Program-made: the position numbers and the translations under genes | From: Isoetes taiwanensis | Lineage: Eukaryota > Streptophyta > Lycopodiopsida > Isoetales > Isoetaceae | DNA: 64,000 nucleotides | NCBI GenBank assembly: GCA_021234155.1 | Contig: JAJEKV010000038.1 | Coordinates: 4,150,847 to 4,214,846 of the forward strand | Direction: 5' to 3' | The notes under the pieces: model-generated | Told to the model about the DNA's origin: nothing | The model's input: only the letters and a program-made list of their open reading frames with translations | The model's database searches: none | In this document: in pieces, positions 9,037-61,160 of the stretch | Layout: each line of letters starts with the position of its first letter | Position numbering within the stretch: the first letter of the stretch is position 1

Positions 9037-9660
9037 CTATTGACCGCGTGGGCATAGCTTTTCAGGAGAGAGTGTGGGATCTTCAGATGGTAAGGCACCA
9101 GAGAGAAGATATTGTTGGCAGTCATGGAAAAAGTGTGGCGTGGTTGTAACCAAGAAGAGTTGAGCATTTGAAAAAGTGTCGAAAACTCCCCTGGACGGGT
9201 CATCAATGTGAATGCGTGAAAGATAATCAGACACCACATGAGACTTGCCTACCTTGTGAATAATTTCAAAGGGAGCAAACTCTTGGAGCAACACCCAGCG
9301 GGCAATACGTCCTGTGAGCATGGTCTTATTGATAAGATAGAGCAGAGCTTGATGATTCACAAAGAATTTGATTTTACTACCCAGCAGATAGTGACAGAAC
9401 CGATGGACACAGAAGATGAGTCCAAATGCCTCCCATTCCATGGTAGAATAATTTTTCTCAGCAGGGTTGAGTTTCTTGCTTGCATAGCGAATAGGTTTGT
9501 CAAGCTGAGAATCATATTCCTGGGAAAGAACAACACCAATAGCAAAAGCGAAAACATCTACATGAACGTGAAATAGTTTGTCCCATTGAGGTGGAACAAG
9601 AACAGGGGCTTGAGTAAGCAGAATTTTCAATTCTTGAAAGGCCGCATCCGCCTGGGGATT
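9037..9660 (-). pseudogene. Gypsy RT thumb and RNase H domain
   Basis: The open frame 9630-9037 (197 aa) begins at the RT/RNase H junction (KILLTQAPVLVPPQWDK). It contains the RNase H signatures VDVFAFAIGVVLSQ, SKKLNPAEKNYSTMEWEAFG and VNHQALLYL, ending at HVVSDYLSRI. The canonical first Asp of RNase H is present in VDVFAFAIG. Upstream only about 25 residues of RT remain. Confidence 0.9.
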
Positions 9661-11441: not shown

Positions 11442-11599
11442 GGGCGGCGCATGCCCATTCTGGTTGGGAGTTCGCTATTTTAGGCGCGATTCTGCATCAA
11501 CATCTCATCAAGCAGAGTTTCATTAAAGTTGGAAATTTCGTGATTCCAATTTCTCGTAAAATCAGTTTCTTCCCTATTTTATCACACATTTATGGCTAG

Positions 11600-12015
11600 A
11601 TATGGCACTATTTGCTTAAAAAGAAACCAGTTATCATGCAAAAACCGCTACATTTAATATAAAACAGCGCGGTTTTAGTTGTCAGGAAGAGAACTATGGC
11701 GCCATTTACTTGGAAAGTATGAGGAAAAGCGGCCCGAGAACCACAAAAGCAGATATTAAATTGCCAAAAAGCGCCAACAAACAAACAAAATGGCTTGGCC
11801 GCTCCTTTAGCTTAGAAATAACCACAAAGCAAATAAGCGCAAACGCGATATTTGCTTTAACGCGAAAGGAAGCAAATGGTGCAGCGCTATTTGATTGAAG
11901 CGTGAAAGCAAGCAAATAGTGCAAAGCGCTATTTAAGAGCTTAGCAAATAGTAGATGCGTATTATTTGCGTGAGCGTGAAGACCAAGCAAATAGTGCTCT
12001 CGCGCCATTTTGCTA
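11600..12015. repeat. AAATGGCGC / AGCAAATAGTGC word array, block 1
   Basis: Words such as AGCAAATAGTGC, GCGCCATTT and GCGCTATTT occur repeatedly in both orientations from 11606 to 12010. They belong to the family seen in blocks at 13.65, 15.46 and 17.26 kb. The block starts near CACTATTTGCTT, the complement of the internal word. Confidence 0.65.
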
Positions 12016-12099
12016 TAGATAACACATATTTTCAGAAGACCATGTAGATATATATATTAATAGAAATATTATATAAGATACAATTTTTCAAAACACAGA

Positions 12100-13290
12100 A
12101 TTTTTTTTAATAGTCATTGGCGAAGTGTTCATCAGAGACTTTCTCATAATCATCCAGGTTAATTTTACTGCGGTCAATTTGATCCTGCTCTGCTCCAGCT
12201 TGGCCCGACGTCTCACCTTTCTCTGTATGAGAAGCTTCTTCGTCTGCCCTTCTACGAGATTCACCATCTTGCAAAGTCAAGACTTCCGTTGGCGTTGGTC
12301 AATGGCCTTTGGGTCAAGCGAGGGGTACATGGCGTTCTCGACCCTACCTGAATGCCCGCTTCGCATTTCATCTTTCCTAACTCATGCTCGTATGTCTAAC
12401 CGATTCTTCCTACATGAAGGGATGCCCTAGAGAAGGCTCCACCGGAGAAGAAATCTAGTGCGATGTTACCTTGAGGGCGAGAGCTTATCAACAAGGTAGA
12501 ACGATTCTGCGGGACCAATCTGTTTATGCACCGGATATTCTCCTCCATACCCCGCCAACTCCACTTAAACTTTTGTCTTGCATGAGTTTTTAGCCATAAC
12601 ATCGCCCTCACTTCGATGGCTTCCTTAGGAATAGGAGGAATTTGCGGGAGCTTTCTAGGATGGTCGCCAAATAGCCTAAGGTCCAGGTCTTCGTCAGGCT
12701 CTCCCGTCTGTGCCGAAATCCTCGTAGCAAATAGAAGAGCTTGTGGCTCTTTGATTCCTGAACCACCAGCTCAGTCTCCTCTTCATAGATTCCTACAAAC
12801 ACTCTTGACCTGGATTCTAGTCTTTCAAGCGACTTTGGCAAATAGTAAGTTATGCTCTACTGTGAAACATAGAATCCAAAGTATGTCTCTACATCTGTCA
12901 TCTGTGAGACTTTATCGAAGAACGCGGTTACAGTCTCACTTTTCCAAACTGGAGTAAGCTGCCTTGCATCTAAACATATCATGCTGGCAGGTAGAACTGT
13001 ATGTTCGTTCGGAATCCCCGTGATGACATGCTCCACAAACCATCTTGGCGTGTCCTTTTTCGTTTTCAGTGAAGGATTTTTCGAATGGACCGCCAAGGAG
13101 AATGGCATGTTACCATGAACTCCCTCTTTGAGTATTCCTTCTGTACCCACTTATGGTGGCATACCCCCAAACCGGAAGTGCTTTATCCGAGAAGTGGTGC
13201 GTGGCTTTTCCAGGAGGTCCTCGAATTTCTTGTACTTAGTGCCAATTTGATCTGCAGAATGAAGTGCGATCTCTCCTTCTTCATGTAAGC
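12100..13290 (-). pseudogene. Family X downstream coding remains
   Basis: Consecutive minus-strand frames (13150-12857, 12841-12608, 12611-12396) read as protein-like sequence in shifting frames. They follow directly from the family X block at 13.3-14.3 kb. One segment (TPRWFVEHVITGIPNEHTVL, then ASMICLDARQL) loosely resembles the end of an amino-methyltransferase domain (P-x3-[FL]-[VL]-E-x-[VI]-I...TVL), but key residues are not conserved and I treat that as weak. A later Lys/Asp-rich piece (DRSKINLDDYEKVSDEHFAN) precedes block 1. The region is not translatable as it stands. Confidence 0.4.
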
Positions 13291-14310
13291 AAGTACTCTT
13301 AAGTTCTAGCCCTCGTCTTGAAGAAATTATCGCCTTTGTAATCTGAGGTGACTTTGGACGTATATATCCCCGCTTAAAGCTTCTTGAGGACCTTTCTACA
13401 ATCATCATAGTCCAAGCCCCTCATGCATCTAAGGTAGTTGTCACTGAAGTAATCTTTGTCTTTAGCAAAATTGATTACTATAGCTTGACCCCTGTTGTCC
13501 TTAAGTTCTCCCTTCCTCCATTTGTTCCACATCTGGCGGAAGAGTGCATAGACATCATCTGGCATGAAGACAAACCGATTGACATCCTTCGTGTGTTTGC
13601 CCCTCAGAATCTTGTCTGCCATTTCAAGGTAGTCTTTGCCAAGAGAGTTTGGCGATTTTAGAATTTCAAATGTTGCTATTTACATCTAATGGCGCATTTG
13701 GCGCTATGTACATCAAATGAAAAGAATTTGCGCTATTTACATCAAATAAAGCATTTGCGCTATTTGAGTTGAAATGGCGCATTGCGCCATTTCAACTCAA
13801 ATAGCGGCTGCGCCATTTGATGTAAATAAGCCAATCGCGCCATTTCGATAAATGTATGGGTAAGGAGACGTAAACATACCTTGTACTCGTCACTTCTTGA
13901 CTGTCCTTTACCAAATAGGGTCGGGTCTTCCGCATTCACGAAATGCGCTTGCGAAGATGGTGGATCGATCCACATATGGTTCCTTGAAGGCGGTCTTTGC
14001 TACTATATCATTCACATCCACACTTGGTGAAGAAGGTCAGTCAGCGATCTCTCGAAAGAACTACGCATATTCTATAGACATAGATCTTGCGAGCTCGACT
14101 CTAGCATCCTCTGTCCCCAACTTATCGCACACGCGGTGGCGGAAATGATGAGAATGATTACCATTGATAATATAAAATCTTTTTCGAATCAAGTCGATTC
14201 ACGTGACGGCTTTCAAAGAACTCCTTTGTATCCAGGATCAAAGGGCACTACATCTGCTTGGAGTGAATAAGGGTGTGGATCCTCAAACAAATGATTTGTA
14301 GAGCCTCCTA
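13290..14310 (-). pseudogene. Family X, copy c: decayed gene with G-N-H motif
   Basis: Minus-strand segments in order: PHPYSLQADVVPFDPGYKG; RFYIINGNHS; DKLGTEDARVELARSMSIEY; NDIVAKTAFKEPYVD; a GTATGTTT donor-like end after SDEYK; the hairpin block 13.65-13.85 kb; then WNKWRKGELKDNRG and DKDYFSDNYLRCMRGL; then KVTSDYKGDNFF and TLRVLAYMKKE. The same blocks in the same order occur at 52.53-51.71 kb (copy d), with the shared II-x-GNH, ND..V...T..KEP, KD[FY]F...LR..RG and KV...Y.G patterns. The GNH segment recalls ParB/sulfiredoxin-like domains (inference). Stops and frameshifts make this a pseudogene. Confidence 0.6.
13650..13850. repeat. AAATGGCGC hairpin block 2, with a 49-bp perfect palindrome
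   Basis: Dense GCGC[CT]A[T]TT and AAATGGCGC words. Bases 13758-13806 form a perfect hairpin: 24-bp arms around one central T at 13782, with the left arm starting CGCTATTTGAGTTGAAATGG. The block lies between two family X coding blocks, right after a GTATGTTT donor-like site on the minus strand, so it may be an intron. Confidence 0.85.
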
Positions 14311-14429
14311 ACATGCTCGGGGTTAATAACCGGGCGGTCATATTAGGTGGGGCCTCTTCTAGATCCCGGATAGATATTCTTACGGTGTATGTGACTCAAG
14401 GGGAACATGTGGTAGCTTTTTGTATTTTC

Positions 14430-15290
14430 TTTAGTGTTTCCTCGCCATTTCTTCTTCTTCGTCCACGGTCCATCTTTAGTTCTCGGGCACTTCAAGATCG
14501 CAATCTTTGTAATTTCACGGCCCTTATCGTGCTTTGGTTTACGGCTTTCTCTTTCTTTGGAGTGCTATCTGCTTTGTGGATGCTACATTTCTTATGTGCT
14601 TTGTAGCCTCCTTATTGTCACTAATAGTGCGGTCACTATCGCCAGGCTTCTCATCGGTGGGCTTCTCGGTGGACTTCACGCGGGAGAATCATGTTTGTGA
14701 GCATCGGTCTCATCCCTCTTCTCATCCCTATGCTCCTCCCCTTTCTCAACTTCTCGTCCTTCTTCTTGTTACGTCTCCCCTGTGTACATCACCACCTCCA
14801 CTGTTTTTGTTCCTTTGCCCGGCTTTGGTGGCATTTTTAGTTTTTACACCTTTTCTGCATCTCTCCCGTGACCATCGCTATCCATTCTGGCGGCATGTTG
14901 CACGAGATCTTCGCTCTTACAATGTAGGACCGCGGAGTTTTTGGACATGTCCATTGCTCATGAGAATCTTGAATCCTTTGAGGATCTCTAGTGCCTTTGA
15001 TATCGCTTGCTCTCTCGGACTCATAAGATGGCGTGGCCAACCTTTTCTTGGCCGGCGGTGCTTGGTCCTTCATCTTTGGACTCCATCATTGCGGGCTCGT
15101 ATAATCGCCAATCCATGCAATAGAGATCAATCTTTGCCGGTGGTGGGATCTTCCTTTGTGCAACCAAGAAAGTCAAGTCTTCCTTGTTTCTTGACTTCCC
15201 TCATGTTGACAATGATGCCCATCGGGCCCACGGTTGAGGCTCCTTCTTCACGTACACTGATTTGACAAGGAGGCAAAGTTTCGCCTCTTG
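14430..15290 (-). pseudogene. Probable 5' coding region of family X copy c
   Basis: Minus-strand frames carry protein-like pieces: IIVNMREVKKQGRLDFLGC, SPRERAISKALEILKGFKIL, and Lys/Asp/Glu-rich stretches (EKPTDEKPGDSDRTISDNKE). The 78-aa frame 15073-14837 overlaps them. The plus-strand 243-codon frame at 14534-15265 is antisense to this and is Leu/Ser/Phe-rich, as expected of a shadow. No domain is recognised. Confidence 0.35.
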
Positions 15291-15459
15291 TCTCCCTTGG
15301 TTGGGTCTCGCCCGATCAAGGGTATGGCTCTAACGATCTCCATACACCAAGACCTTCCGCCGGACTATGCTCCTCGAAGTCACCACCGTTCCATTTCTTG
15401 GCGCACTAGCCTGCGAGAGGTAAGCATGGTGAGAGAAATGGCATGTGCTAGAAAGTTAA

Positions 15460-16020
15460 AAACAGGCAAAAAGCGGCATTTTAGACTAAATGGCGCAGCA
15501 TTGCGCCATTTAGTCTAAACCTACTCGCCATTTAGCTTTTATATAATAGAGCAAATGGCGCGGTCTTTATTTAGTCTAAATAAGATCTGCCATTTGGTTT
15601 CGAAGGGGCCGATAATAGAGCAAAAGGTGCTTATTTAGACTAAAATGGCGGCAGCGCCATATTTAGTCTAAATGTATTACCTATCGCCCATTTAGCTTTT
15701 ATATAATAGAGCAAATGGCGCAAGTGCGCCATTTAGTCTAGATGGCGCATATGCGCCATTTGGTTTTCGAAGGGACCGATAATAGCAAATGCAAGCGGTG
15801 CGCATATTTAGACTAAAGCCAGCCATTTGCTCTAAATGGCGCACCTGCGCCATTTGCTCTTCTATGGGTCCGCTTCTACAAGAATATTAACAGACATTAT
15901 GGAAATGGCGCACCTGCACCATTTCACAAACTATAGGAGGAAAAGGCTGCTACAAGCCCACCCTCTCCTAATGAAATGGCGCGTCCGCGCCATTTCAGTT
16001 ACCTAAGACATTACAAATCG
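15460..16020. repeat. AAATGGCGC hairpin block 3
   Basis: Perfect hairpins: 15480-15519 (18-bp arms, GCAT loop), 15713-15734 (10-bp arms), 15742-15759 (18-bp uninterrupted palindrome), 15834-15855 (10-bp arms) and 15972-15997 (12-bp arms). They are joined by TTTAGTCTAAA, itself a palindrome, so adjacent hairpins can re-pair in alternative ways. Confidence 0.85.
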
Positions 16021-17255
16021 ATAATAGAAACAACAGATACTAACCTGGAGCCGGCTCCTGGATTTTGATCGAAGATTGCGCCATTGTATAAAAGTATAAA
16101 AGTCTGGGGACCGTATAAATCCTACTCCACTTTTTTTTTAGAAGCCCCGGATCAACAGCTAGAGAGAGAGAAGATGGTTGAATAGGAGAGAGAATGTGCA
16201 AAGCTTAGAAGCTAGGTGTCAAGGCGGAAGCGGGAGGCGGGAGAAAAGAACAATGAAATTGAAAATGAAAATTGGACTAAAAGAAAAGAAAAGAAAAAGT
16301 CGGGGAAAGAAAAGAAAAACCAATTTTACCTTGGCGAGTCTCTTCAAATTTTGGCGCCCGTAGTCACCGAAATTTTGAAAATTTCGATTTTTCCACTTCC
16401 CGCCGGTTTGTCTCTACAAATTTTAAAATTTTGAATTTTTCGCCCGTCCGTTTCTCCCGCCCGTTAAGCCATTATAAATTTTAGGTAGTTTAAGTCATTC
16501 ATACGCGACGAGTGTCTCGCCCTTGCTAGCTCAAATTTGAAATTTGAATTTGCCCGCCCGTATTTTGAACTTTGAATTTGCCCACCGATCCACTTCATAA
16601 TGAAGCCTTTCATTTGTCTATTTGTCGGGGGAACATGGTCGATAGAAAGGCGCTATATTCGACTTCGGCGGTTTGCGATTTTATGCACCTCGTCCTCGTT
16701 TCAATATTCGTAGGTATTTGCGCTTGAGATCTCTTGGTCGACAAAGCAGGGCGCTTCTCCGACGTCTATTCCGTCTTAGACGTTGGTTCCTTAGTCGATA
16801 GCAGCAGTTGCCAGCTTGGCCGCTTGTCTTTCTTTTGCAGCCGCTTAGCCCTTGTCTTCATTCTTGGTAGCGGCTTCGTTTCTTAAATTTCGGCTTCATT
16901 CTTCTTCAGCGCTTGGCTTCATTCTAGTGGCGCTTCGTCTTCATTTTTCGGCGCTTGTCGGATTCTCCAAGCTTGTCGGACTTGTCCAGATTATTCAGCG
17001 CTTTGACCAAATTCTTCAGCATTCTCTGATATGGCAGATCCGGAATCGTCAATGACCTCCAGGTTAGAGGCTATTCAGTTCTAGTAAAATGTTTTAGTAT
17101 GTTTAATGTAGGATGTAGGATGTTAAATATTTTAATATGTTTAAGGGTAGATCTTCTCTATCTTGTTCAAGTAGATAAGTTCTCAACAATTGATGTCTTC
17201 TTTGAATCTTGTAGTAATAGGAATCCATAACTCTAGCTATTAGATATAGCATTTA
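16021..17255. other. Alternating CGCCCG and AAATTTT-rich non-coding sequence
   Basis: From about 16250 to 16620 there are purine runs (AAAGAAAAG) and repeated CGCCCG islands separated by AAATTTTGAATTTTT-like tracts. From 16750 to 17040 the sequence has repeated GCGCTTGGCTTCATTCT-like words. On the minus strand this reads as Lys/Ala-rich but with many stops. No confident gene. Confidence 0.4.
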
Positions 17256-17535
17256 GAATAAAGATGCCATTTACGTCAATGGGCCATTTCCCTTTAAATG
17301 GAGCAAGAGCGCCATTTTCCTTGAAATGGGCATTTGCGCCATTTCCCTTTAAATGACGCATTTGCGTCATTTAAAGGAAATGGAAATGCTGCTCCATTTT
17401 CAAGGAAAATAACATGAAATTCCATTTCAAGGAAATGGCCGATTGATTGTAAATGGCGCAACACGGCCATTTAAAGGTAAATGGCGCGATCATTGCTCAT
17501 TTAAGTAAATGGAGCGGTTTAGCCATTTGTCTCAT
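17256..17535. repeat. AAATGGCGC hairpin block 4
   Basis: Repeated CCATTT and AAATGG words linked by CCCTTTAAATG or CCTTGAAATGG. Hairpin 17346-17377 has 15-bp arms (CCTTTAAATGACGCA) around TT. The outer-arm sequence differs from blocks 2 and 3 while the core is shared. Confidence 0.8.
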
Positions 17536-17589
17536 GTCATTATAATTTCTTTCACATTTTTCGCTATTTTTACTAAGTATATGTCATCG

Positions 17590-18215
17590 AGGGTTGCATG
17601 TCTCTAACAAGTATATATATATGTGTATTGATTCTCACGGGAAAAAGGCCCTGCGTAACCTTTGTCGATGGGGATGTGGTAGTTGCCGGGGACATGAATT
17701 GCATAGAGGCCATCGCATGGCGGGGAACATTCCATGGTGCAATGTGGTCGTGGAGGTCCTTTGAAGCCATAGTGCCCACCCATGTGCTTCCCATTAAGGT
17801 GTGAGGGAGCAGATAACATTGGCAAGGTGGGGACATTTATCGAATGGCCTCGAAATCAAGTGAAAATCTTGTGAAGGAGCCCCAACTTACTCATCGGAAA
17901 CGTCGATCTTGAAACCCCGAACTTGCCTAGTAGTCCATCCACAACATCATCGGACTTCGATTAATCGATCGCCCGCTCCTTCAAGCGAAGAAGCCTGAGA
18001 GAATATGGTGAACCTTGTCGCGAATAATATCGTGGTTGGTAAGGGTGTCTTGGTGAATAGAACTTGCATCCGTGGGAAGAATGTTGACGCACTCAACGTA
18101 GCGGTGCAAGTTACCGAGGTCGTGGTGCCTACCCACATCCTTCCAGATTCCATGTGATGGCATTGACAACATTGAAGAGAAGGCGTGGGCACGCGTTTAT
18201 CGAATGGCCTCGGCG
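17590..18215 (-). repeat. Two diverged copies of a 360-bp coding-like unit
   Basis: TTTATCGAATGGCCTCG occurs at about 17836 and 18196. On the minus strand each is followed by a GTGGGCACTA or GTAGGCACCA stretch and by similar His/Gly-rich frames: HMGGHYGFKGPPRPHC in one, DVGRHHDLGNLHRYVE in the other (frames 17825-17604 and 18172-17981). Unknown family. The second copy ends at a stop after SGFFA. Confidence 0.5.
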
Positions 18216-18299
18216 CAGGATATAAGATATCATGCCATTGATTTAGCTACTCCATCGCGACCTCGAATGTAGAATCAGAGAGGCGTTGTCGGATCTGAG

Positions 18300-20365
18300 A
18301 TGAAGAAATTGATCCCTACAGTGGATCTAGGTACACGTTTTCCTCGCAGGATAGCATCAGATGATGATGAACCACCACCTAGTTTCTCAAGAACTGATCT
18401 CTTGGATAAGCATTGCCACATTCTTCATGCATGTGACCGAAGTAAATATGCAGAGGCCATAATTGTCTTCAGTGATCCCCAGGATGCTGTTGACGATGAA
18501 TTTTTAGGAGACTCAAAGGTGGGGCTCTGTGTGGGAAAGATCCTTCCTGCACTAATTACAGAGGATCAGTATATGGAAAAGGGAATTTCCAGATGTTAGC
18601 ATTGCAAAAAATACAGCCTTCTCTAAATGCAACATCTGCGTGGTAATTAAGCAAAAGCTGGAAAAAACAAAAGATACAAGAGAGAGAGATGAAATCTTGC
18701 AATTCAACGTCGGGCTCATATGCTAGAGCAACGCTCTTGCAGAAGTCAATATTGGCATTGGAGAGCATTGTCACAGCGGTCTCCTGAAAATCATCTATGT
18801 ATAATACATGATAAGATGGATCAGGTTAAGACTTTAGTGCCTAGAAGTCATCATCTAGCAAAATCTGTATGGAGAGGTGATCGCTTGAAGAGCAGTTTGA
18901 CAGGAGCTTTGACTCATGGGCATGGTGGTCGTGCCTATGGTCATTTTTTACTTGATTTATGGAAAGATGATTCAAACTTCCACATTGGTTCACTTTCTAG
19001 AATATTGCATAACTTGGAATTGGTGCAAGAGGACAAGATAGGTGACTTATGTGGAAGTAAGCCCCAGATTGCAAATGGATGCAAGCAATCAAGGACATCA
19101 ATCCTTTGAAGAACAAACTTGCTTCCATGGGAGAAGTATTGCCAAATACTTCAACTACAAATGAATCTGAGGTGTTCAACCCTCTTCCCGAAATCTCTAT
19201 TTGCAACTTGATAATGCTGTGAGGGCAAAACAAAAATAGGTATGTCTTTTTCATACTTATCTTATTTGACTTGGCTTAAGGTCTTTGATGAGATCCAAGT
19301 GGGCTTTATGATGGTCGGCCACACCCATGATGATATTGATGCTTTATTTGGAAATTTTTCAACCTTGATGAGTTAGCTGGGATGCTTTGACACTACGAGC
19401 TACTTTACTTGTTTAGCAAATGCAATGCAAAATCCCCAATTCCATACTTTATTGATGAAGTTCTAAATTGGAAGGATTTTTGTGAAGGGATTCATCCACG
19501 ATAAGGGCCAACGCACTGGTTGGGCATCTTGAACCATTGCTCTTCAAATTTAAGATGGCGGAGATTGGCTGTTATGCAATACAAAATGCGTCCTACACAT
19601 AAAGAGTGGCTTCCAGCAGATTCTCCAGGAGTTAGAATGTGGAAAGAGGATGAACATGGTCAGCCAATGATACCAAGTGGTGTGCCACAAAATATTCCTC
19701 CTAGACCAACATTGAAAGATCTTCCAGGGTTGAAGGATAGCATCAACAAATACATCTCCCTATGGAAGGACATATGTAAGAATCAAGAAAGTGTTGCAAG
19801 GCAATACACGGCAAGTGTTGAGTATTGGAGCCAGCTTCTTATCTCTTTGGAGGATGTTGCTTCAGGACGTCCTCAAAATGATGCATTTTGGCCACAAACA
19901 AGACAAGCTCCTCTAGAACAAACAGCATTTGTTCCAGAGGTCGACGTATCTGCCTTGGTCACACGACCTTTACCATCTTATTGTGGCCCGTCAGATGGCC
20001 GTCCAGTGTTGCCTCTTGAAGAGTTTGATCCTCACGTACATGTGACAAAGGGTATGTTTGTTCTAGTCAGACCTGGAGATGATAACACTGCCACTTGGTT
20101 AGGATATGCAGAGGAGAATGCTGTTCTTGATCCAGAATCTACATATTTTGGCCATATTTTTGTATCGTGGTGGAAGCCTACTGGAGGGGACTACAAAGAC
20201 TGCTTGACTAAGCGTTGGCGGCCTAATCCTTCCGATCCTTCAAGGTATGAAAATTTAGATGCTATTCATTATGCCTGGGATGCCAATGGCAAGAGGCCGA
20301 AAACAGTCCAAATTCCGAAATATATTATAGACATGTGGAAAGACATAGCACATTGTTCATCTTAA
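18300..20365 (+). pseudogene. DUF7869-like transposon-type gene, copy A
   Basis: Plus-strand pieces in order: 18300-18599 (99 aa, FSRTDLLDKHCHILHACDRS); REILQFNVGLI and IHDKMDQVKTLVPRSHHLA; SLTGALTHGHGGRAYGHF; then LQLDNAVRAKQ and VGFMMVGHTHDDIDALFGNF at 19.19-19.35 kb; then the long open frame 19520-20365. The GHTH-[DE]-DID motif preceded by Q-[LV]-DN is the signature I know from DUF7869-type proteins, found in transposon-like genes of plants and oomycetes. Several stops and frameshifts interrupt it. Copy B at 60.2 kb has the same segments. Confidence 0.65.
19520..20365 (+). CDS. Longest open segment of the DUF7869-like gene (281 aa)
   Basis: The frame runs 281 codons to TAA. Its first residues belong to the segment WKDFCEGFI...GHLEPLLFKF, which is also found in copy B, so the real frame began further upstream and the Met at 19520 is arbitrary. 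The middle reads WLPADSPGVRMWKEDEHGQP, VPQNIPPRPTLKDL and KDICKNQESVARQYTAS. The C-terminal part (KGMFVLVRPGDDNTATWLGY, HIFVSWWKPTGGDYKDC) looks like a small beta-barrel reader or BAH-like module, but this is only an impression. The frame is remarkably intact compared with its upstream part. Confidence 0.6.
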   Translation: MGILNHCSSNLRWRRLAVMQYKMRPTHKEWLPADSPGVRMWKEDEHGQPMIPSGVPQNIPPRPTLKDLPGLKDSINKYISLWKDICKNQESVARQYTASVEYWSQLLISLEDVASGRPQNDAFWPQTRQAPLEQTAFVPEVDVSALVTRPLPSYCGPSDGRPVLPLEEFDPHVHVTKGMFVLVRPGDDNTATWLGYAEENAVLDPESTYFGHIFVSWWKPTGGDYKDCLTKRWRPNPSDPSRYENLDAIHYAWDANGKRPKTVQIPKYIIDMWKDIAHCSS

Positions 20366-20531
20366 TACATGAGATCTTGTACTTGTAATACATATCTTTC
20401 ATCTTAATACATAAGATCTTGTACATTACTATATTTGTGATCATATATAACTGCTTACATCTTTAATATATAAATGCATACATGATTCATAGATAAGATG
20501 GTCAGAAGTGCTTATATGTTGAACAGGTGAT
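20366..20531. other. 3' flank of copy A with ATGAGATCTTGTAC repeats
   Basis: CATCTTAATACATGAGATC and CATCTTAATACATAAGATC are tandem copies about 50 bp apart, in AT-rich sequence. Confidence 0.5.
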
Positions 20532-20773
20532 TCATTCATCTTCAGGATCTGTAGTAGTGATCCCTGATATCTCATAGCTCATCTTTCGAGGAGCCAAATC
20601 GGATGGATCATAACACCTAATTGACGCAGGCAATGAATCTGGCGCCCAAAAGCTTTTCTTCGCAGGTAGGGATCAAGAAGAAGATGCCTGTCTAGGCAAC
20701 CAACAAGATCAGAGTGGCTCATTGAGCACTTGATCGCCTCGATGTGGTGAATAGAAGAAGGCAAATAATCCAT
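20532..20773 (-). pseudogene. Small tandem gene, copy 1 (frameshifted near its end)
   Basis: ATG at 20773-20771 opens MDYLPSSIHHIEAIKCSMSH. The frame aligns along its whole length with copy 2 at 21420-21178 (shared: LP, a [KR]C-x-[ML]-S-x-x-DL block, [LK]LDP-[YW]-L, and a [IY]WL near the end). The annotated frame stops after WLLER at 20579. Shifting by one base restores YEISGITTTDPEDE and a stop at 20532, which matches YELNSITCFDVDDE of copy 2. So copy 1 has lost its last 15 or so residues by an indel, or the protein is now shorter. Unknown family, no signal peptide or membrane segment. Confidence 0.65.
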
Positions 20774-20809
20774 GGGAGATGAATGACCTCTAGCCCCGAA
20801 TGGAGCTGT

Positions 20810-20816
20810 TTTTATA
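20810..20816 (-). promoter_or_regulatory. TATA box of small gene copy 1
   Basis: CACTATAAAAACAGCTCC on the minus strand, 37 bp before the ATG. The 50 bp around it are nearly identical to the promoter of copy 2, including AATTCACATCAATAAT upstream. Confidence 0.7.
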
Positions 20817-21177
20817 GTGAAGTAAAATTATTGATGTGAATTATTGGGGTGGACTGTAGCGCCATCATTGAGCGTATACAAGTATCATGTACTCTTTCAA
20901 ATGCAGTATACAAGTATCATGTACTTTCAAATGCAGTACGATTCTATCATGTACTCAGATTCTATACATCAACTAATATTCACTATGCTTATATTATATA
21001 TATCCTTAACGGATACACAAATCATAAGTGCTTATATTATTATATCCTTAACAGGTATACATATCATCGATGATTCACTCGTCATTGCTGCTTGACTAAT
21101 ATAGGTGTGATTGAAATTAAAGACAGCTTGCATAGTTAGGTACTCATGTCATTATTATATCCTTAGCAGATACAGAT

Positions 21178-21420
21178 TCACTCATCATCAACATCAAAGC
21201 ACGTGATGCTATTCAGCTCATAGATCTCCTGATCAGGAAGCCAATAAAGGTGGACCTTAACACGAGTGAGCTTCTTGCAAGCACTCGCAGGACCATCTGC
21301 TTTGGACTGCAGCCATGGATCAAGTTTGATACCATTTCTGTAGCATTCACACAGATCATTATAGCTAAGGTAGCACCTGAAGGATCGGATGTTCTCTGGA
21401 CGATCAGGCAAGGAAGCCAT
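21178..21420 (-). CDS. Small uncharacterised protein gene, copy 2 (80 aa)
   Basis: ATG at 21420-21418 opens an uninterrupted 80-residue frame, MASLPDRPENIRSFRCYLSY to CFDVDDE. It has an acidic end and several Cys, Trp and Tyr residues, and no obvious transmembrane or signal segment. A TATA box sits 37 bp upstream and the start context is CCCATGG. Copy 1 lies about 650 bp away in the same orientation. Conservation of protein sequence, TATA position and leader between the copies supports a real expressed gene. I do not recognise the family; it may be specific to this lineage. Confidence 0.65.
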   Translation of the reverse strand: MASLPDRPENIRSFRCYLSYNDLCECYRNGIKLDPWLQSKADGPASACKKLTRVKVHLYWLPDQEIYELNSITCFDVDDE

Positions 21421-21456
21421 GGGAGATGAATGAGCTCTACCACCGGATGGAGCTGC

Positions 21457-21463
21457 TTTTATA
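21457..21463 (-). promoter_or_regulatory. TATA box of small gene copy 2
   Basis: CACTATAAAAGCAGCTCC on the minus strand, 37 bp from the ATG, with the same upstream AATTCACATCAATAAT element as copy 1. Confidence 0.75.
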
Positions 21464-21548
21464 GTGAAGTAAGATTATTGATGTGAATTATTGGTGTTCA
21501 TTGCCTTTATACGAGTACCATACATGTATATGATCCAATAATTTCTAT

Positions 21549-21626
21549 GTATATACTATCAATAATTTTGGTGAGTATATACCATCAATAATTTTGGTGG
21601 GTATATACCATCAATAATTTTGGTGG
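21549..21626. repeat. Three tandem 26-bp units
   Basis: GTATATACCATCAATAATTT plus TGGTGG repeats at 21549, 21575 and 21601 with one or two changes. Just after it comes GTATAAATATACATC, a possible TATA element for a plus-strand coding-like stretch (about 21650-21950: YDDYGLERDSITCKMNHEDF, then HYPDPVDVIIHLLWNREYQM) that is broken by a stop. Confidence 0.8.
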
Positions 21627-21934
21627 GTATAAATATACATCAAATTGCCGAAAGTCAAAGACAACATTGGCCTCCGTCTAGCTATGACGATTACGGTCTT
21701 GAACGTGATTCTATCACTTGCAAGATGAACCATGAGGACTTCAAGCGTGCCCGCGTGGCGAGATATACCGCTTGAAGACTGGCTCACCTGCTTGTCCTCG
21801 CCATTATCCTGATCCCGTCGATGTTATCATCCATCTCCTGTGGAATAGGGAGTATCAAATGTTCATGATCGAAAGGATCTCCGAGGCCTTATACGCTAGT
21901 TCCGATCATTTGAGTAATAGTAGAAGAATAATAT

Positions 21935-22245
21935 TACTTGTTATCTTATTGTAATCTGGTTGTGTTAGTATACAACAGGTACACATAACCTTTTGTAATA
22001 CACATAACCGTAATATAAGTAATAGTAAAATAATAGTACTTGTTATCTTATTGTAATCTGGTTGTACTCTTATTGTTATCTTATTGTAATCTTATTGTTA
22101 TCAGGTATACATAACCTTTTGTAATACACATAACCATACTATATGTATTGAGGTATACTAGTATGCAACAGGTATACATAACCTTTTGTAATACACATAA
22201 CCATACTATAAGTATTGAGGTATACATAACCCTCCAAGGTATACT
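21935..22245. repeat. Repeats of GGTATACATAACCTTTTGTA
   Basis: GGTATACATAACC followed by TTTTGTAATACACATAACC occurs three to four times with spacing of about 60-130 bp, mixed with TTATCTTATTGTAATC repeats. AT-rich, non-coding. Confidence 0.75.
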
Positions 22246-23814
22246 ATATAAAAATTATTCCAACTTGTCTTCAGAATTCCAACTTTAATGAAACTCTGCT
22301 TCATCGGCGCTTCCTCTTCGGGCGGTTTGTTGGTTTCATGCGAGTCCCATTCTAGAATAGTAGGTCATATGATTGTTGTTTTATTGCACAATTTCTTACT
22401 GATTGATGTCAATAAATTGCAGGAATTGCAAGCATGAGAAACTCTATTAGTGCTTTGGCCATAACTTTTATACAGCTAGACCAGTTAATTGTTCAATGGA
22501 ACATTATGGACAATATCACACAATTATACAATTTTCAGTGCAATAGTCCTGCTGCTGCAATTGCCATGTTTGGTGGTTTATCTTTGGGAGTTGAGAACAT
22601 AGCCATGCAATGCTCCCTGGTTTTTTTGGAAACATCAATATGTAGCATTATAACAGGGGGTTATTTTTATATTTTTGTACGCTTTTTCACATGGTTTTCC
22701 TATGATTTCGGCGTTGTATTCGTGAAGACATACTAAATAGTATTTCTAGAGTGCGCCCTTTTTGGGTCGTTGATTTGGGTTTGCTGAAATAATCAGCGGT
22801 TGATACTGTCATTGCATGCATGCATATGTATCAAGCCCCAATAACTTTTACCCTCTAGATTCTTGTGTTGCTGGCGAGCAGGATTCTTGATGACAGGAAG
22901 ATATTGGTATGGCATCATAGAAGCTTATGCTACCCCATAGTTTTTTATTGGTTTTTTATTGCAAAAAGTCCGAGCATCCCGGTTCGAGCAAGAGTCGGCT
23001 TAGAATCATCGATACTCTCTACATCCTTCTCGTTAGTTCTCACCCTAATATAGTCGATCATTGCGGCGATTTTATAAAAGTGATGCTTTTTCCTGCTTTT
23101 GTCTCGTTTCGTTCGTCCTCCGGCTCAAAAAACCACCGCCACCAAAACTTTGGCTGAACCGTTCTTACCATTTCGTCAGTAGTTCGATTTCTGGTACAAA
23201 TATGCATGAATTTGGCCGGTTATTGGATGAGGTAAAGGCGGAAGAAAAGGTATGGGCGTTCTATCTTAATCTTGGTGAAATCCCTTTTAGGTTAAGCAAA
23301 CAAGCCGCCAGCAAAGAAATTTTGTTCCTCATCTAAATCAAAAGAAGTTGTGATTTGCTTGTCTATGGTGAATAGTCCTTACAGCGTTATGCACAAATGG
23401 CTAGTTCTCAACAAACTGGTTTGCCTTCAACGCCAACAATTACATCTCCTGTTAAAGCAGCTACTCCAGTTACGTCATCCCCAACTGTTACAGTGCCGGC
23501 AGAGTAAACAAAAGTTCTTTTGCTAATTGTAACAAAATCTTTTGCATGCATGTGGCAAATGAGAGAGAATAGCACATCAGTTCCAAAGGAAGTGATCAAG
23601 AGGCAAACTATGCATGGGACATAGAGGTACTGTTGTAGTAGATATCTTGCTATTTATGCAAAACAGATGACGTAGAAGTAGTTAAGTGGCTCTAGAGTGC
23701 TCAGATGAAGATTGTTTTTACCAGTTCTCAAATGAATATTGCAGCAGAATTGAAAATTCTGTCTTAAGGGTCACAAACGTCTGTGTTCATGCTCAGTAAA
23801 CTTGGTGGGTGCAG
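22246..23814. other. Unassigned sequence
   Basis: No confident gene. AGTAGGTCATATGATT at about 22360 also occurs at about 11347. The complement of CAGAGTTTCATTAAAGTTGG (11.5 kb) occurs at about 22280, so this stretch shares rearranged pieces with the 11.3-11.6 kb region. Plus-strand frames such as MHEFGRLLDEVKAEEKVWAF (about 23.2 kb) look protein-like but are unrecognised. Confidence 0.4.
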
Positions 23815-36969: not shown

Positions 36970-36970
36970 G

Positions 36971-36982
36971 TGGTATCAGAGC
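36971..36982 (+). other. Primer-binding site, initiator methionine tRNA
   Basis: TGGTATCAGAGC one base after the 5' LTR, the standard plant copia primer site complementary to the tRNA-iMet 3' end. Confidence 0.95.
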
Positions 36983-36989
36983 TACCAAT

Positions 36990-42038: not shown

Positions 42039-43375
42039 GCTGTAAATGATACAGAAAACCACAATGGCATAAGACAAACAAGTGTGGCCGCCCTGTGGAC
42101 ATTCAGTACCTTAATAGGTTAGACAACTATAATTTGTTTTTTGACATTGATCGATTTTATATACACAAATAAGTATTGTTATCCTAATTTACCCTTCAAC
42201 CCGAAGTCATGGAGATTAGGCTCGAATCTGCTATCCTAAGTTCTTATAAAAAATAATGTAATGTGTTTGATACAAAGCTCTGGGCTTGCAAAAATAGTGT
42301 TCTCATTGGAAGATAGAGAACCTCGCACACTATTATACATTCGAACCCTTATCAAAAATAATCTACTGAGTGTTTGATACATACCTACATTACACAGTCA
42401 CGTCATAAGTATATGTCAAGTACGACGACATGTACACTGGTATCAAAAGGGGTTGCACCATGAGATGCAACTATTTTGGACCATTATACTGCACATGTTA
42501 ATACACATGTGAATGTAATCCATCTTGCCACGTGGCAATTCCGCAAGGAGCCAAATGGCCCAATCGATGCTAACCCTAAAGCTTCGACACTAACCCTAAA
42601 GCGTGGGTGGATGGATGGATTAGTGCTACCCTTCAAGGCAGTATTGCTATTTATATTATGTTAGTACTTATAGTTTTGCTCCCCTTGATGTAGGAGGCCG
42701 ACACCTCTGTATCCTCTACTTGGCCATGCATATGCACGAGTTAAATGGAGGATCCATACAACGGTGCGTTCATTGGATGGGGGAAGTCCTATGACTTATA
42801 TGGTAGATTGCCATGTATGACTGAGGATGTCACAAGATAGTAGAGCAATGATCTTGATTGACCAAGATCACGCATTGGCCATTACCCTAATTAGCTAAGT
42901 AAGCAAACATTAATTAATTTGAGAAATTTGGAATTCTAGTTGTGTACGAAATAAGTTGCACGCTACCCATAGGATGCAAAGAATGGTTGGTCTGCAGCAG
43001 AAGTTTGCATTTTATTGCAGAAAAAATGCAAGGAAATTATATCTTATGTGAAATTGCATTCAAGGGGTTCTTTCCGAGCTGTTGTTTTGAGTAAAGGTTG
43101 ATAAAAAAAAGATGTTAAAATGATTGTGAAGATTGTGACGACGGAACTTTCTAGCAATTGATTGGTCATTTGGCGAAATGTACAATGAACATTCGGAACA
43201 CTAGGATAATGCATCTTTTATAATAACAATATGCTGGAGAAGATCGCTGTGGAAATCTTCTCGACAACAGTAAAGGATGTAATTAATAAAAGACTTAGAA
43301 ATATTGTCAATCAAACACGTCATTCCTATTCATCATTTGGCATAAAATTAAAAAGAGATCGCCCCGGCGATGAAA
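42039..43375. other. No supported gene
   Basis: AT-rich sequence. Two similar phrases about a hundred bases apart (ATACAAAGCTCTGG / ATACATACC, each followed by an ATTCGAA-like word) hint at a weak duplication. The 62-aa frame at 42476 shows no motif. Confidence 0.4.
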
Positions 43376-44040
43376 TCACCGAGTTTCTAATATAGATTCA
43401 GGTGTCGCATCGAGTTCATTAGCTATTCGCCAAACATGCTCTCTCCCAATCTCTATAGCCTGAGAAGTGTTCATCCCTGAATAGCCCGTCATATCGAGTA
43501 CATCCACTTCCATGGCCCGGGCAATTCTCTGCATACTTTCGGCTACGTGACGCGCTTCAGTGTCTCCAAGCAATTCCCGTTCCAGCTCACTTAAGAACTC
43601 AGTAGGATGAAATATTTTTAATTTTTTACATGAAATAGAGTGCTCCTGTGTTCCAGCCGTCTCCATCTCATCTTGTTCCTTATCATCAGAACCGAGATAC
43701 TGAAACGTATTTTCCCTGCCACAACAACCATAGCCCATTCAAAATATTGATTTATACTCTCTAGCTTTTTGAATGTAGGTTCTAAGACATCAATATCTTT
43801 CTGGGTGGACTCCAAAAGTTTCTTCGTCTCCTGCATCCTTTCCTCATAGCTCTTCTCGTCCAGCTTGTCTAAAATCTCATCCAGGTTGAACAAGTCTGTG
43901 CCTTGGGTAATCCTGAGATTGGGTCCAGAAGGGACCCCCTGAGCTATATTCTGGTCCTCTGCTTTCTGTTTCTCCAAAACACCAGTTGATTGGTTGCCAT
44001 TTTGTCTAGCATTTTCAAGAAAGATATCAAAAAATGGCAT
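43376..44040 (-). CDS. Two-exon-like unrecognised gene with coiled coil
   Basis: First frame (44040 on): MPFFDIFLENARQNGNQSTG, then LFNLDEILDKLDEKSYEERM and QETKKLLESTQKDIDVLEPT, a strong coiled-coil pattern, ending near SINQ. Then TTGTTGTGGCAG|GGAAAATA looks like a 3' splice site, and the second frame (43738-43376) reads FLSELERELLGDTEARHVAE, MQRIARAMEVDVLDMTGYSG, AIEIGREHVWRIANELDATP, ending at TGA after ETR. Both halves have protein-like composition and no internal stops. I do not recognise the family. It could be a host gene or the small ORF of an element. Confidence 0.45.
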
Positions 44041-44089
44041 ATTTTTTCATCCTTTTCGAATGGCACACTGCGCTTTCCTTGCATGAGTG

Positions 44090-44830
44090 CTATGCATGAA
44101 GCTGTATTGCTGAGAAGAAATCAAGGATGTCGCCATCTTTAAGCACCATCTGATCAATAATGTGATATGTGTATGATGTCTTCAGCTGGCATTTAAAGAC
44201 ATGGTCATCATCCATTGCAGCCCAACTGTATCTCGGCTTACCTGTGAAATACGTCTGATATTTCTTTTTTATTTTTTCATCTTCATTCTCCTTTTCGGTG
44301 AGTGGCATTTGTGGTGAGGGGAGTGCTGTTTGAAGCATTGTTCACCTGGTTGAGACGAAGTTCCAACTCTGGTTGCATTAGCAGAACACATGCCTCACTC
44401 TTGTAAATGCACATGTGGCTAATCTAATATTGATATTCTATTACTTTTGTCTTGCTCACCCACCCTTATTCGTCATAAGTTGTATTTGGTTCCGACTGTA
44501 CAAACAGTTTGGTAAGTTCACAGAATGCATTAGGATAACCAAATGATAGACTTTAGTTGTTCTCATGCTCGCTATCCTTGAAAATAGTTCCATGTATTTC
44601 TTGCAATCCCATACTTTTATGAAACCATGGATATCAATAAACACTAGGGTTGCATTCTCTGAAACGGGGCAGATAATGGATTGCCATCTTTTGTGACCAG
44701 ATGAACAATATTGTTTTTCTCCTTCCTTTTCCTAGTCTCTTCTGGCTCCAATATGGTTCTGATAGGTTCTAAAAAACAAATGGGAAAGTTACCCAGCACA
44801 TGGTCTTTATACCAATTGGCCTTCACGTAT
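44090..44830 (-). pseudogene. Unrecognised minus-strand ORF cluster
   Basis: Three successive pieces: 44826-44644 (KANWYKDHVLGNFPICFLEP, RKRKEKNNIVHLV), a +1 frame with NATLVFIDIHGFIKVWDCKK and YMELFSRIASMRTTKVYHLV (44660-44456), and 44338-44090 (82 aa, YFTGKPRYSWAAMDDDHVFK, VLKDGDILDFFSAIQ). They point the same way as the ORFs at 43.4-44.0 kb and may be its upstream exons. No known motif. Confidence 0.35.
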
Positions 44831-44928
44831 TTTGTGTCTGTGTCGACAAGAACCTAATATTCTCTGCTTAATGAAATCTGGAAAATCCACAATCAGATCT
44901 TCAAAGAATGTATATATTCACACACAAC

Positions 44929-51709: not shown

Positions 51710-52530
51710 TTATTTTGCTATATATTCTTTCTTGACCACACTACTTGCGTAAGTCAAAATTTCTCTCTGCATAAATGTGAGAGTTCTGATGTCGAGTGCT
51801 CTTTGTTTGCAATCAAATCTGCCGGAATATCCAGGCTGCACTTTCATGAAGGTCTTGCCTTCTAGTATTTCATCAAGCAGTTGGGAGAGTTCCGCATTAG
51901 ACATGCCTCGAAGGTACCTAAGCCACGTATTGTTGAAGAAATCTTTATTTAGTCTTTCAGGGGGCTCATCATGATCATCATACAACTTCTTGCCAACTCA
52001 TCTTGTAACCACTTCCATCAATCTTTCAAACCCTCTCCTCCAAACCACTATTTTTCGTCCAACGCTTTGACCTTCAGGGTAATGGTGGTTATTTCAATAA
52101 AATCCTCTAAAAAAGAGGTTATTAGAATCGCCATCGCGATCTTCACGAGCTAAAATCAATCATACCTTCTATGCGGAGGTCGTTGCAGTGCCGATTGGTC
52201 CTTGAGCAGGACAACTATGTGCCTTATGCTGATGTTATAGTTGCTGGAGCTTTTTTATGAGTGGTTCTTTATATACCGTGTTCGCTATCACTTCGTCATT
52301 TTGGATGCTTAACTTGATGTATTCCTTGTCAGCCCAGTTCCCGTTAAGCACTCTTATTCTTTTTCTCGCATATGCTTTAGCAAATTCCAGTTGCTGCTGC
52401 AATTCTCCAACTACTCCACAAAGCAATTGTGCAACACTAATGTTGTGATTACCAAATATTATAAGGAATTTTTTTCCCTTGCAAGTCTTCAGGCGTGCTC
52501 CGGGTAACCTTTAAAATCTTCAACATTTAA
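51710..52530 (-). pseudogene. Family X, copy d
   Basis: Minus-strand blocks: KGKKFLIIFGNHNISVAQLL, GELQQQLEFAKAYARKRIRV, NGNWADKEYIKLSIQNDEVI, ANTVYKEPLIKKLQQL (stop at 52235). Then AGAAG|GTATGATT (donor-like) and, from about 52090, a W-KWLQDELAR piece followed by the 91-codon frame 51985-51710 (LNKDFFNNTWLRYLRGMSNA, KTFMKVQPGYSGRFDCKQRA, IRTLTFMQREI). The order and many residues match copy c at 14.3-13.3 kb. The first block (KKFLII-x-GNH, then an RxRV..G...D[KE]E stretch) recalls ParB/sulfiredoxin-like domains of transposon-borne proteins (inference). Two or more frame breaks make it a pseudogene. Confidence 0.6.
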
Positions 52531-60166: not shown

Positions 60167-61160
60167 ATAAAATGGACCAGAATAAGCTATGGTACCTAGG
60201 CTTGAAAAGTTAGCCAAGTTGGTATGGAGAGGTGAGCATCTGAAGATCAGCGTCACTAGAGCTCTAATGCATGGTCATGGTACAAGGGCACTAAGTCATT
60301 TCTCGGTTGATCTTTGCCAAGATGACTCTAACTTTCAATATTAGGTCTTTCAAACATGTATTGAAGACACTAGAAGATCCAGTTGAAGATAACTGGGGCC
60401 ACATATATCTCGCGTGCATGGTGTTCTAGAGTTATTGAGCCCGTGACTTTGAAAACCAAGGTAACCAATAAGTTAGGCTAACCATATGATGTGCCTTACC
60501 GAGAAGACTTTACCTTCAGCACGATAATTGCTCTGACCAAAACAATAACAAATCTGTGTTCATATACGCAGGGTGTGTTTGGTGAGATGCAATTGGGATG
60601 CATGATGGTTATGTTGTAATCGGCAATTAGAAGGTTAGATGCACTTACTATTCCAGAGTTAAGCAATTGTTTTGAAAATGTAGCTCGAAGGCTCCAATGC
60701 CTGACCTTGTGCACGAGATCCTTGATTGGAAGGGCTTTGTGAAAGGCTACATTAAGAAGGAACGTTTGATTGGCCATCTAGAACTGCTCCTTTTTAAGTT
60801 TTACCAAAAAGACGGTTGGCCTCTAATGTTTTTTAAGATGTAACCTAGGCACCGTGAGTGGCTGTTGTAGACGGGGATCAAAATGTGGAAGGTAGATGCA
60901 GATGGTGCACCCACTCAAGGAGTACCAAAGACGATACCCCCAATGAAAGCTCTTCAAGACATTGGTGCTTTGAGAAGGTCTATAACAAAAAACATCATGC
61001 ATTGGATAGCTATCACGAAAGGAGGGAGCACTCGTGGTCAAATGCATACATGAATGATGTTATAGTCTACTGTTTGTGTCTACTACGTGTGCTTGGAGAG
61101 GTGGATGGTGGTCCATCTGACATGCACGATTTCACACGTGGCAGGATGCTTTGGTTGAAC
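60167..61160 (+). pseudogene. DUF7869-like transposon-type gene, copy B (heavily decayed)
   Basis: Segments matching copy A in order: HKMDQNKL; LAKLVWRGEHLKISVTRALM and HGHGTRALSHFSVDLCQDDS; then VHEILDWKGFVKGYIKKERL, IGHLEPLLFKF; then HREW, IKMWKVDADGAPTQGVPKTI, PP-x-KALQDIGALRRSITK. Frames change many times, and the GHTH-type motif is mostly lost (only MHDGYVV-like remains). Same orientation as copy A, 42 kb away. Confidence 0.6.

Follow-up and report, generated by a model that had tools for sequence, protein, structure and literature searches.

Decayed copies of a transposon accessory gene of ParB-methyltransferase type, and candidate lineage-specific palindromic sites, in Isoetes taiwanensis

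Two homologous pseudogenes of a DNA transposon family

The DNA considered here is a 64,000-nucleotide stretch of the Isoetes taiwanensis genome (contig JAJEKV010000038.1, positions 4,150,847 to 4,214,846; hereafter the window), in which a first-pass annotation had marked two copies, c and d, of an unnamed gene family sharing at least five sequence blocks, one of them with a G-N-H motif. Both were confirmed as real, homologous, decayed copies of the accessory gene of a DNA transposon, a gene that we call ParB-MT for its ParB-like and methyltransferase (MTase)-like parts. The five blocks were recovered on the minus strand at the places first described, as KRFYIINGNHS, VELARS, NDIVAKTAFKEP, MWNKWRKGELKD and KDYFSDNYLRCMRG in copy c and as KKFLIIFGNHN, LEFAKA, NDEVIANTVYKEP, WKWLQDELA and KDFFNNTWLRYLRG in copy d. 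When c and d are properly aligned, the 'ND' of the third block is offset by one residue. The GT[AG]TG sites that had looked like splice donors, at 13879 and 52165 on the minus strand, are the counterparts of the intron 2 donor; this intron has GT-AG limits in all five d elements fetched.

Window features of the two elements are as follows.

11510..22301, no strand: complete c-type DNA transposon (element c), 10,792 bp, internally decayed, with 25-bp perfect terminal inverted repeats (TIRs) and target site duplication (TSD) CATC
11510..11534, plus strand: TIR of element c, AAGCAGAGTTTCATTAAAGTTGGAA, perfect
12110..15452, minus strand: ParB-methyltransferase-like pseudogene of element c (tblastn with c-type proteins, as for its three parts below)
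12110-13667, minus strand: middle and MTase-like part of the copy c gene
12956..12979, minus strand: position of MTase motif IV in copy c, reading ICLDARQL, no DPPY (sequence and motif alignment)
13917-14330, minus strand: ParB-like part of the copy c gene
14151..14183, minus strand: KRFYIINGNHS block of copy c, the GNH motif first noted (sequence)
14785-15452, minus strand: N-terminal part of the copy c gene
18387..20326, plus strand: remains of the element c transposase, in divergent orientation to ParB-MT (tblastn with a d-type 945-aa transposase, E down to 7e-72)
22277..22301, minus strand: TIR of element c, perfect inverted copy
42901..42929, plus strand: TIR at the 3' end of element d (TIR comparison)
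43379..44844, minus strand: MTase-like domain and C-terminal tail of copy d (tblastn), motif IV reading VFIDIHGF
51716..52042, minus strand: middle part of copy d, with the KDFFNNTWLRYLRG block (tblastn)
52105..52165, minus strand: intron 2 of copy d, limits by analogy with the fetched d elements
52166..52477, minus strand: second half of the ParB-like domain of copy d, with the KKFLIIFGNHN block (tblastn)
60189..61133, plus strand: remains of the element d transposase, in divergent orientation to ParB-MT (tblastn)

Homology between c and d exceeds chance. Proteins of better-preserved relatives matched both window loci in tblastn, with E down to 7e-79 against the copy of their own type; across types, a c-type ParB open reading frame (ORF) and a c-type MT exon matched copy d (E=3.5e-17 and 2.4e-10), and a d-type ParB exon matched copy c (E=3.3e-6). 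The c and d proteins were 27% identical over 438 columns (E=6e-44, an E-value for a single comparison). Both window copies are interrupted by stops and frame changes, and copy c compared with the c-type locus L035 gave omega values, calculated here and below by the Nei-Gojobori method on tblastn-aligned codons, of 0.66 for the ParB-like and 0.90 for the MTase-like part, as for a decaying copy. The statement that the family is present twice proved a large under-count: first-look searches of the genome returned 2008 candidates with a d-type query and 1642 with a c-type query, both counts being rough, and 150 of 150 scored candidates matched for the d-type ParB query and again for the c-type exon query.

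The transposon setting, which had been surmised from the sequence, was supported by TIRs, TSDs and a transposase. Five d elements were fetched as stretches of 13-13.5 kb (C1096, C1056, C1084, C1007 and C279); both ends were common to them, except that C279 shared the right end only. The four with both ends found all had TIRs of about 26 bp starting AAGCA, together with TSDs (GAGT in C1096, AATA in C1056 and TTGA in C1084, each 4 bp, and the 5-bp ACATA in C1007), and measured 9.7-10.5 kb from end to end. Their transposase, with open frames of up to 945-947 aa, matched PF25273 (DUF7869; E=9.7e-43), and transposase and ParB-MT genes were divergent on 12 of 12 contigs chosen by eye among the matches listed. 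The left end of window element c is shared with L035. Window element d begins at the TIR at 42901 and is split, with its MTase-like part at 43.4-44.8 kb, middle and ParB parts at 51.7-52.5 kb and transposase at 60.2-61.1 kb; its right end was not found in a scan for element ends. A host gene or a virus was considered as the source, and copy number, TIRs, TSDs and transposase favored a DNA transposon instead. We therefore hold with high confidence that the family is a DNA transposon of about 10 kb carrying a DUF7869 transposase and an accessory gene of ParB-MTase type.

Some further features were seen within these elements. In the left terminal regions of four of the five d elements (L013, L017, L019 and L021), a block of 0.17-0.49 kb on the transposase side is present twice in direct orientation, the two copies having diverged to 71-76% identity. 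Window positions 20516-21503, inside element c, find their best matches, at 79-89% identity, in the d-type left terminal region; element c thus seems to have a fragment of a d-type end, or a small non-autonomous copy, nested within it. Within the interrupted element d, RNase_PH domains 1 and 2 were recognized in an open frame at 45947-46594 that resembles an exosome subunit (E=2e-26). This may be the host gene itself, or a copy of it that the transposon has captured or that was inserted there.

A third lineage, e

Adjoining the d element C1056 is another methyltransferase-like gene, which defines a type e. An e-type search of the genome gave 2370 first-look candidates (a rough count), 150 of which were scored. 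In this type, a ParB-like exon with YVLGGNHSFKARRQL lies upstream of the methyltransferase-like gene. One e locus, C1045, has a divergent DUF7869 fragment (E=3.8e-28); the other five e loci, over 3.3-4.5 kb each, gave no transposase match of their own, and at L023 the end of the neighboring d element is seen.

The GNH region is linked to ParB through lineage e

The GNH segment had been likened to ParB/sulfiredoxin (Srx)-fold domains. This assignment was supported, with reservations, by way of the e type, and no direct profile or fold match was obtained for c or d. For the first link, d and c sequences were compared with e over the helix-strand-GNH region by blastp, which gave 45 alignments at E<=1 (best E=3.2e-5, the six best all being d) and none with reversed sequences. 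Profile comparison of the same region to e with hhalign gave 60.6% for c and d together, 54.7% for d and 0.3% for the reversed control, and c alone matched e over the GNH block with a pairwise E of 0.003; pairwise and hhalign E-values are those of single comparisons, not of a database search. For the second link, the e ParB exon had one NCBIfam match, to TIGR03764 (ICE ParB; E=1.5e-4, 21.5 bits against a curated cut-off of 143.75). In tblastn against plasmids at E<=10, the same exon found weak matches (E 0.3-9) in 13 records, of which 12 of 12 annotated were 'ParB family protein', and the reversed sequence found none. The hhalign value of e against ICE ParB was 56.7% (reversed, 0.3%) and against canonical ParB_N only 0.2%. 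The II-x-GNH or VLGGNH motif is kept and aligned in c, d and e.

Several results weigh against a ParB-like assignment of c and d. Neither had a ParB match in Pfam, as was also the case for the e exon, or in NCBIfam; hhalign against canonical ParB_N did not exceed 1.8%, although the alignment set GNH against GER; c alone scored only 12.7% against e; and an AlphaFold model of the c-type ParB ORF, built from a 19-row alignment, had a predicted local distance difference test score (pLDDT) of 44.8 and was unusable. The direct check proposed at first, by profile or fold, thus yielded no such match for c or d. A PDB profile search with the mixed alignment A1 did return sulfiredoxin rows (six of six from one protein, E 0.5-1.3), but searches with c and d alone (A4) or e alone (A5) led to unrelated rows, so the sulfiredoxin rows carry little weight.

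These negatives would suit an unrelated domain with a convergent motif, as would the residue after GNH, which is serine or asparagine; canonical ParB/Srx domains have a G-x-H-R-like motif behind a hydrophobic stretch, with arginine in that place. Against such convergence stand the chain from c and d through e to ICE ParB, in which the reversed controls were clean, and the published occurrence of a ParB and MTase architecture beside a Sola1 transposase (PMC12477816). We regard convergence as very improbable and read the GNH region of c and d as probably ParB/Srx-like, with indirect support through e.

In other searches, PF02195 (ParB_N) had no match at E<=0.001 in the I. taiwanensis genome (two candidates scored), and 10 of 14 control genomes were positive. 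No relatives turned up when IMG/VR was scanned with one protein each of types e and c, and the e ParB exon matched no phage at E<=1. Five plasmid ICE ParB references likewise had no Pfam match. An hhalign run with a joint c, d and e alignment was discarded as an artefact, having given 99% to every target, methyltransferases included. Two phage methyltransferases tried as ParB-MTase references showed no ParB match and, with their relatives, were kept only as MTase references.

The methyltransferase-like domain has changed catalytic motifs in c and d

An amino-methyltransferase-like C-terminus had been suspected downstream of the copy c blocks, and the comparison with lineage e supports this. 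The METHYLTRANSFERASE part of the e type matched PF01555 with 66.3 bits against a cut-off of 26.7 (E=5.1e-18), and CcrM, MboIIA and RsrI were among its nine PDB matches. Its motif IV reads AD[LI]PYGF in seven of seven aligned sequences and its motif I DAFSGSGTT in five of six; since C1056 and L023 are the same locus, these stand for six and five independent e sequences, respectively. The d locus L002 reached 17.6 bits for PF01555 (E=0.004), under the cut-off, and neither the d locus L034 nor the c locus L035 matched this family. The c and d MTase-like profile gave 69.5% to phage methyltransferases by hhalign, 0.1-0.2% to two ParB sets and only 30.8% to the e methyltransferase. An AlphaFold model of a d-type 622-aa ORF had a pLDDT of 56.6, better at residues ~1-20, 50-60, 90-130 and 150-240. 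Foldseek returned methyltransferase titles in 19 of the first 25 rows for this model (best E=0.021, none <=0.001), and structure comparison of residues 171-289 gave a best Z of 6.6 over 102 aligned residues at a root-mean-square deviation of 3.5, which may reflect a common arrangement only.

Catalytic motifs were then read across loci. With a d query, 22 loci aligned and 19 were readable at motif IV, the others being C1084 (deletion), L005 and L010. None of the 19 had [DNS]PP[YFW]; 18 read Dx[RH], retaining the aspartate, and one read HxR. When a c query was used instead, 19 loci aligned and [DNS]PP[YFW] was again absent; these loci added window copy c (ICLDARQL) and L028-L030, the latter unreadable at this motif. 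In the better c and d copies FxGxG is changed to FSAGTAS or FSGGAFS. As the catalytic tetrapeptide is absent from every readable c or d locus, methyl transfer has very probably been lost in both lineages while the domain was kept.

Retention of the domain is visible in lineage c, where L035 compared with L257 and L258 gave omega values of 0.102 and 0.082 for the ParB-like part and 0.143 and 0.129 for the MTase-like part. Such low values indicate that the degenerate MTase-like domain was kept by selection between c elements. Transposase omega was 0.12-0.26 in three finite comparisons. Between d subfamilies, nonsynonymous divergence (dN) was 0.12-0.21 for ParB and 0.32-0.68 for the MTase-like part, the value of 0.68 coming from C279, which has frame breaks. 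Synonymous sites were saturated there, so the d ParB and MTase-like parts yield no omega; the single finite d ratio, 0.16, comes from one C-terminal tail. The e exons also showed synonymous saturation, with dN of 0.10-0.14, and 0.42 for one M2 exon.

It could be argued that the protein is an active methyltransferase in all three lineages, that its catalytic motif is simply of an unusual kind in c and d, and that it acts by methylating the element. Purifying selection on the c domain, the retained motif-IV aspartate and the near-canonical motifs and PF01555 match of e fit such activity; the missing tetrapeptide at all 19 readable loci and the altered FxGxG of the better copies do not. We judge activity in all three lineages to be distinctly unlikely.

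Each lineage carries its own palindrome

Several copies per element of one palindrome were found, and this palindrome differs with the lineage: for d it is AAGATCGCGGCCGCGATCTT, for c AAATGGCGCAGCTGCGCCATTT and for e AAAGTGTATTCCGGAATACACTTT, with extended consensus strings of 20, 22 and 24 bp. The site string of e elements is GTATTCCGGAATAC, and intron 2 of the d elements contains ATCGCGGCCGCGAT or a one-letter variant. When perfect palindromes were counted de novo, d sequences had TCGCGGCCGCGA as the most recurrent, c sequences GCGCAGCTGCGC and e sequences TATTCCGGAATA; in four other window stretches, no palindrome recurred more than twice. A scan allowing up to two mismatches, which left out L002-L008 and L023, found 3-10 d sites in each of eight d sequences, 1-10 c sites in each of nine c sequences and 5-17 e sites in each of five e sequences; the d locus L012 had one site in a separate count. 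The resulting occurrence matrix was near-diagonal, with Markov controls of 0-0.2. Exact counts on the forward strand of the assembly (1,658,258,908 bases in 1110 contigs) were 1415 for d, 189 for c and 3392 for e; reversed-letter controls gave 2 and 4 for d, 0 for c and 0 for e.

The window itself carries the following sites.

13772..13792, no strand: copy c, intron region, c-type palindrome AAATGGCGCAATGCGCCATTT (sequence; its core was found as a palindrome)
15717..15991, no strand: five degenerate c-type palindromes (2, 2, 1, 2 and 3 mismatches) upstream of the ParB-MT gene (mismatch scan)
43358 and 52127, no strand: degenerate d-type palindromes of copy d, 3 mismatches, the latter in intron 2 (mismatch scan)

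Placement of the sites was followed in the five d elements, with open frames taken as the gene limits. Of their 41 d sites, 26 lie between the two genes, five in intron 2 (one per element), seven downstream (3') of the ParB-MT gene (one or two in each of four elements), one in the transposase frame and two elsewhere in the ParB-MT stretch, so that 38 are outside open frames; the interval from the left end to the transposase frame has none. Within intron 2, the site is invariant at 13 of 14 columns and the rest of the intron at 10 of 68, in a comparison of five copies in which C1096 and C279 are near-identical. An exact c 16-mer occurred within 2.5 kb of 11 of 37 c hits (contigs up to C957), where 0.02 were expected, and eight of these 11 sites are at 61-120 bp, the expected intron position. 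Conversely, 22 of 50 c sites among the matches listed fall within 2.5 kb of a scored c hit. On contigs C1-C190, an exact d site lay near three of four d ParB hits (112, 113 and 1583 bp) and at 3.7-4.2 kb from three of five transposase hits. These positions indicate that the corresponding intron carries a different palindrome in c and d, each that of its own lineage.

From their arrays and positions, the palindromes are likely, as parS-like candidates, to be cognate sites of the ParB-MT protein. They might instead be bound by the transposase, as subterminal repeats, or by a host transcription factor at the divergent promoter, with ParB-MT otherwise employed. The 26 of 41 d sites between the divergent genes are compatible with this, and many DNA transposons do have subterminal transposase sites. 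Neither the intron 2 site of all five d elements nor the sites 3' of ParB-MT in four of them is readily explained in that way, however, and the empty interval between left end and transposase frame argues against it as well; long palindromes in several copies also resemble parS more than typical transposase sites. Binding by a transposase or host factor therefore appears rather unlikely to us.

Some observations fit poorly with a pairing of protein and palindrome. The d-type locus L010 also has four e sites, the sole off-diagonal case; an exact c site is missing within 2.5 kb of 26 of the 37 c hits; and on contigs C1-C190 one of four d ParB hits and two of five transposase hits have no exact d site near them. 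The window copies themselves are decayed, and neither has an exact palindrome site.

A proposed self-recognition system and its relation to known systems

Taking these lines together, copies c and d are probably the remains of an accessory gene with ParB/Srx-like, middle and amino-MTase-like parts, whose protein would bind the palindromes of its own lineage in a DUF7869 transposon family. As we picture it, the ParB-MT protein would recognize its lineage's palindrome as ParB binds parS, and the bound protein may coat or mark the DNA of its own element only; recognition of its own palindromes is proposed to confine its action to that element. Such element-specific binding could help the element escape host silencing or could coordinate mobility. 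An anti-silencing role, rather than mobility or other control, is a tentative choice, held at somewhat less than even confidence. The e protein, with its catalytic motifs kept, may methylate adenine or N4-cytosine around the sites (6mA/4mC), and the c and d proteins would work by occupancy, their MTase-like domain being probably non-catalytic and presumably still needed. The fuller proposal, in which protein and an array of 20-24 bp palindromes co-diverged in three lineages as a ParB-parS-like system of self-recognition, with an MTase domain non-catalytic in two of them and kept for anti-silencing or mobility control, has in our estimate about an even chance of being right.

In bacterial ParB-parS systems, several palindromic sites lie on the same DNA as the ParB gene. 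The present family is alike in its ParB-like domain and in multiple palindromes on the gene's own DNA, and differs in its fused amino-methyltransferase-like domain and its setting in a eukaryotic transposon. A prokaryotic ParB-methyltransferase fusion such as locus L250 has the same order of ParB_N followed by amino-MTase; L250 has DPPY, which c and d lack, and introns and a transposon setting belong to the present family only.

VANDAL elements are MuDR-type elements, and their protein VANC is not known to be ParB-like. VANC, a transposable element (TE) protein of Arabidopsis and the closest analogue in function, binds short motifs and induces loss of methylation, and its motifs are arrayed in introns and upstream regions and differ between related TEs (PMC5735166). 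Both systems comprise a TE-encoded accessory protein and often-tandem non-coding motifs that differ between related TEs; in the present family, lineage-specific motif arrays were indeed found in non-coding parts of the elements. The VANC motif is the 9-base YAGTATTAY, with binding established by chromatin immunoprecipitation and electrophoretic mobility shift assay (PMC5735166); the sites of the present family are candidates.

A published parallel is Sola1-1 of Ectocarpus, in which a gene for a 1104-aa protein with ParB plus N4/N6-MTase lies opposite the transposase; similar ParB-MTase proteins are cited there for green and red algae (PMC12477816). Since ParB-MTase genes have been published for algal transposons, the kind is already known. 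Shared with Ectocarpus Sola1 are ParB-like and amino-methyltransferase domains in one protein of ~1000 aa, and a gene on the strand opposite the transposase in a DNA transposon of >10 kb (PMC12477816). Compared by description, the present family differs in its vascular plant host and in having three lineages in one genome, two of them without the catalytic tetrapeptide; it also has lineage-specific palindromes, of which we met no mention in the Sola1 account (PMC12477816). Transposons of the Sola superfamily duplicate 4 bp at the target site, can exceed 15 kb in size and are present in moss (PMC10741241). A 4-bp TSD is found in window element c, C1096, C1056 and C1084, with 5 bp in C1007, and the TIR length is within the published range (PMC10741241). 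By TSD length and the published parallel, the present transposons may be Sola-like.

The literature searched gave no instance of such a gene in a vascular plant, of a catalytic motif lost while selection persisted, or of lineage-specific palindromes, though these last may have been published. If the palindromes are cognate sites, a prokaryotic DNA-partition module would have been turned into a sequence-specific address system of plant transposons, apart from Arabidopsis VANC. The three lineages of this genome, each with its own palindrome, would then be ready-made orthogonal protein-site pairs, with which the co-evolution of a TE protein and its target could be tested in vitro. Such pairs could separate the countering of silencing by DNA methylation from that by occupancy, and may supply new sequence-specific DNA-binding modules.

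Other features of the window

Outside the two elements, window positions 9037-9660 hold the remnant of a long terminal repeat (LTR) retrotransposon polymerase with reverse transcriptase RNase H domains. An open frame at 55640-56248 has a weak match to DUF4283 (E=3e-4), below the cut-off. A Copia-type LTR retrotransposon occupies 36256-41345, with two long open frames at 36948-39515 and 39382-41211 and gag, integrase and RVT_2 domains. The same 24 bases, alike in their flanks as well, stand at 36256 and 41322 and look like part of two LTRs, which suggests a young Copia-type insertion.

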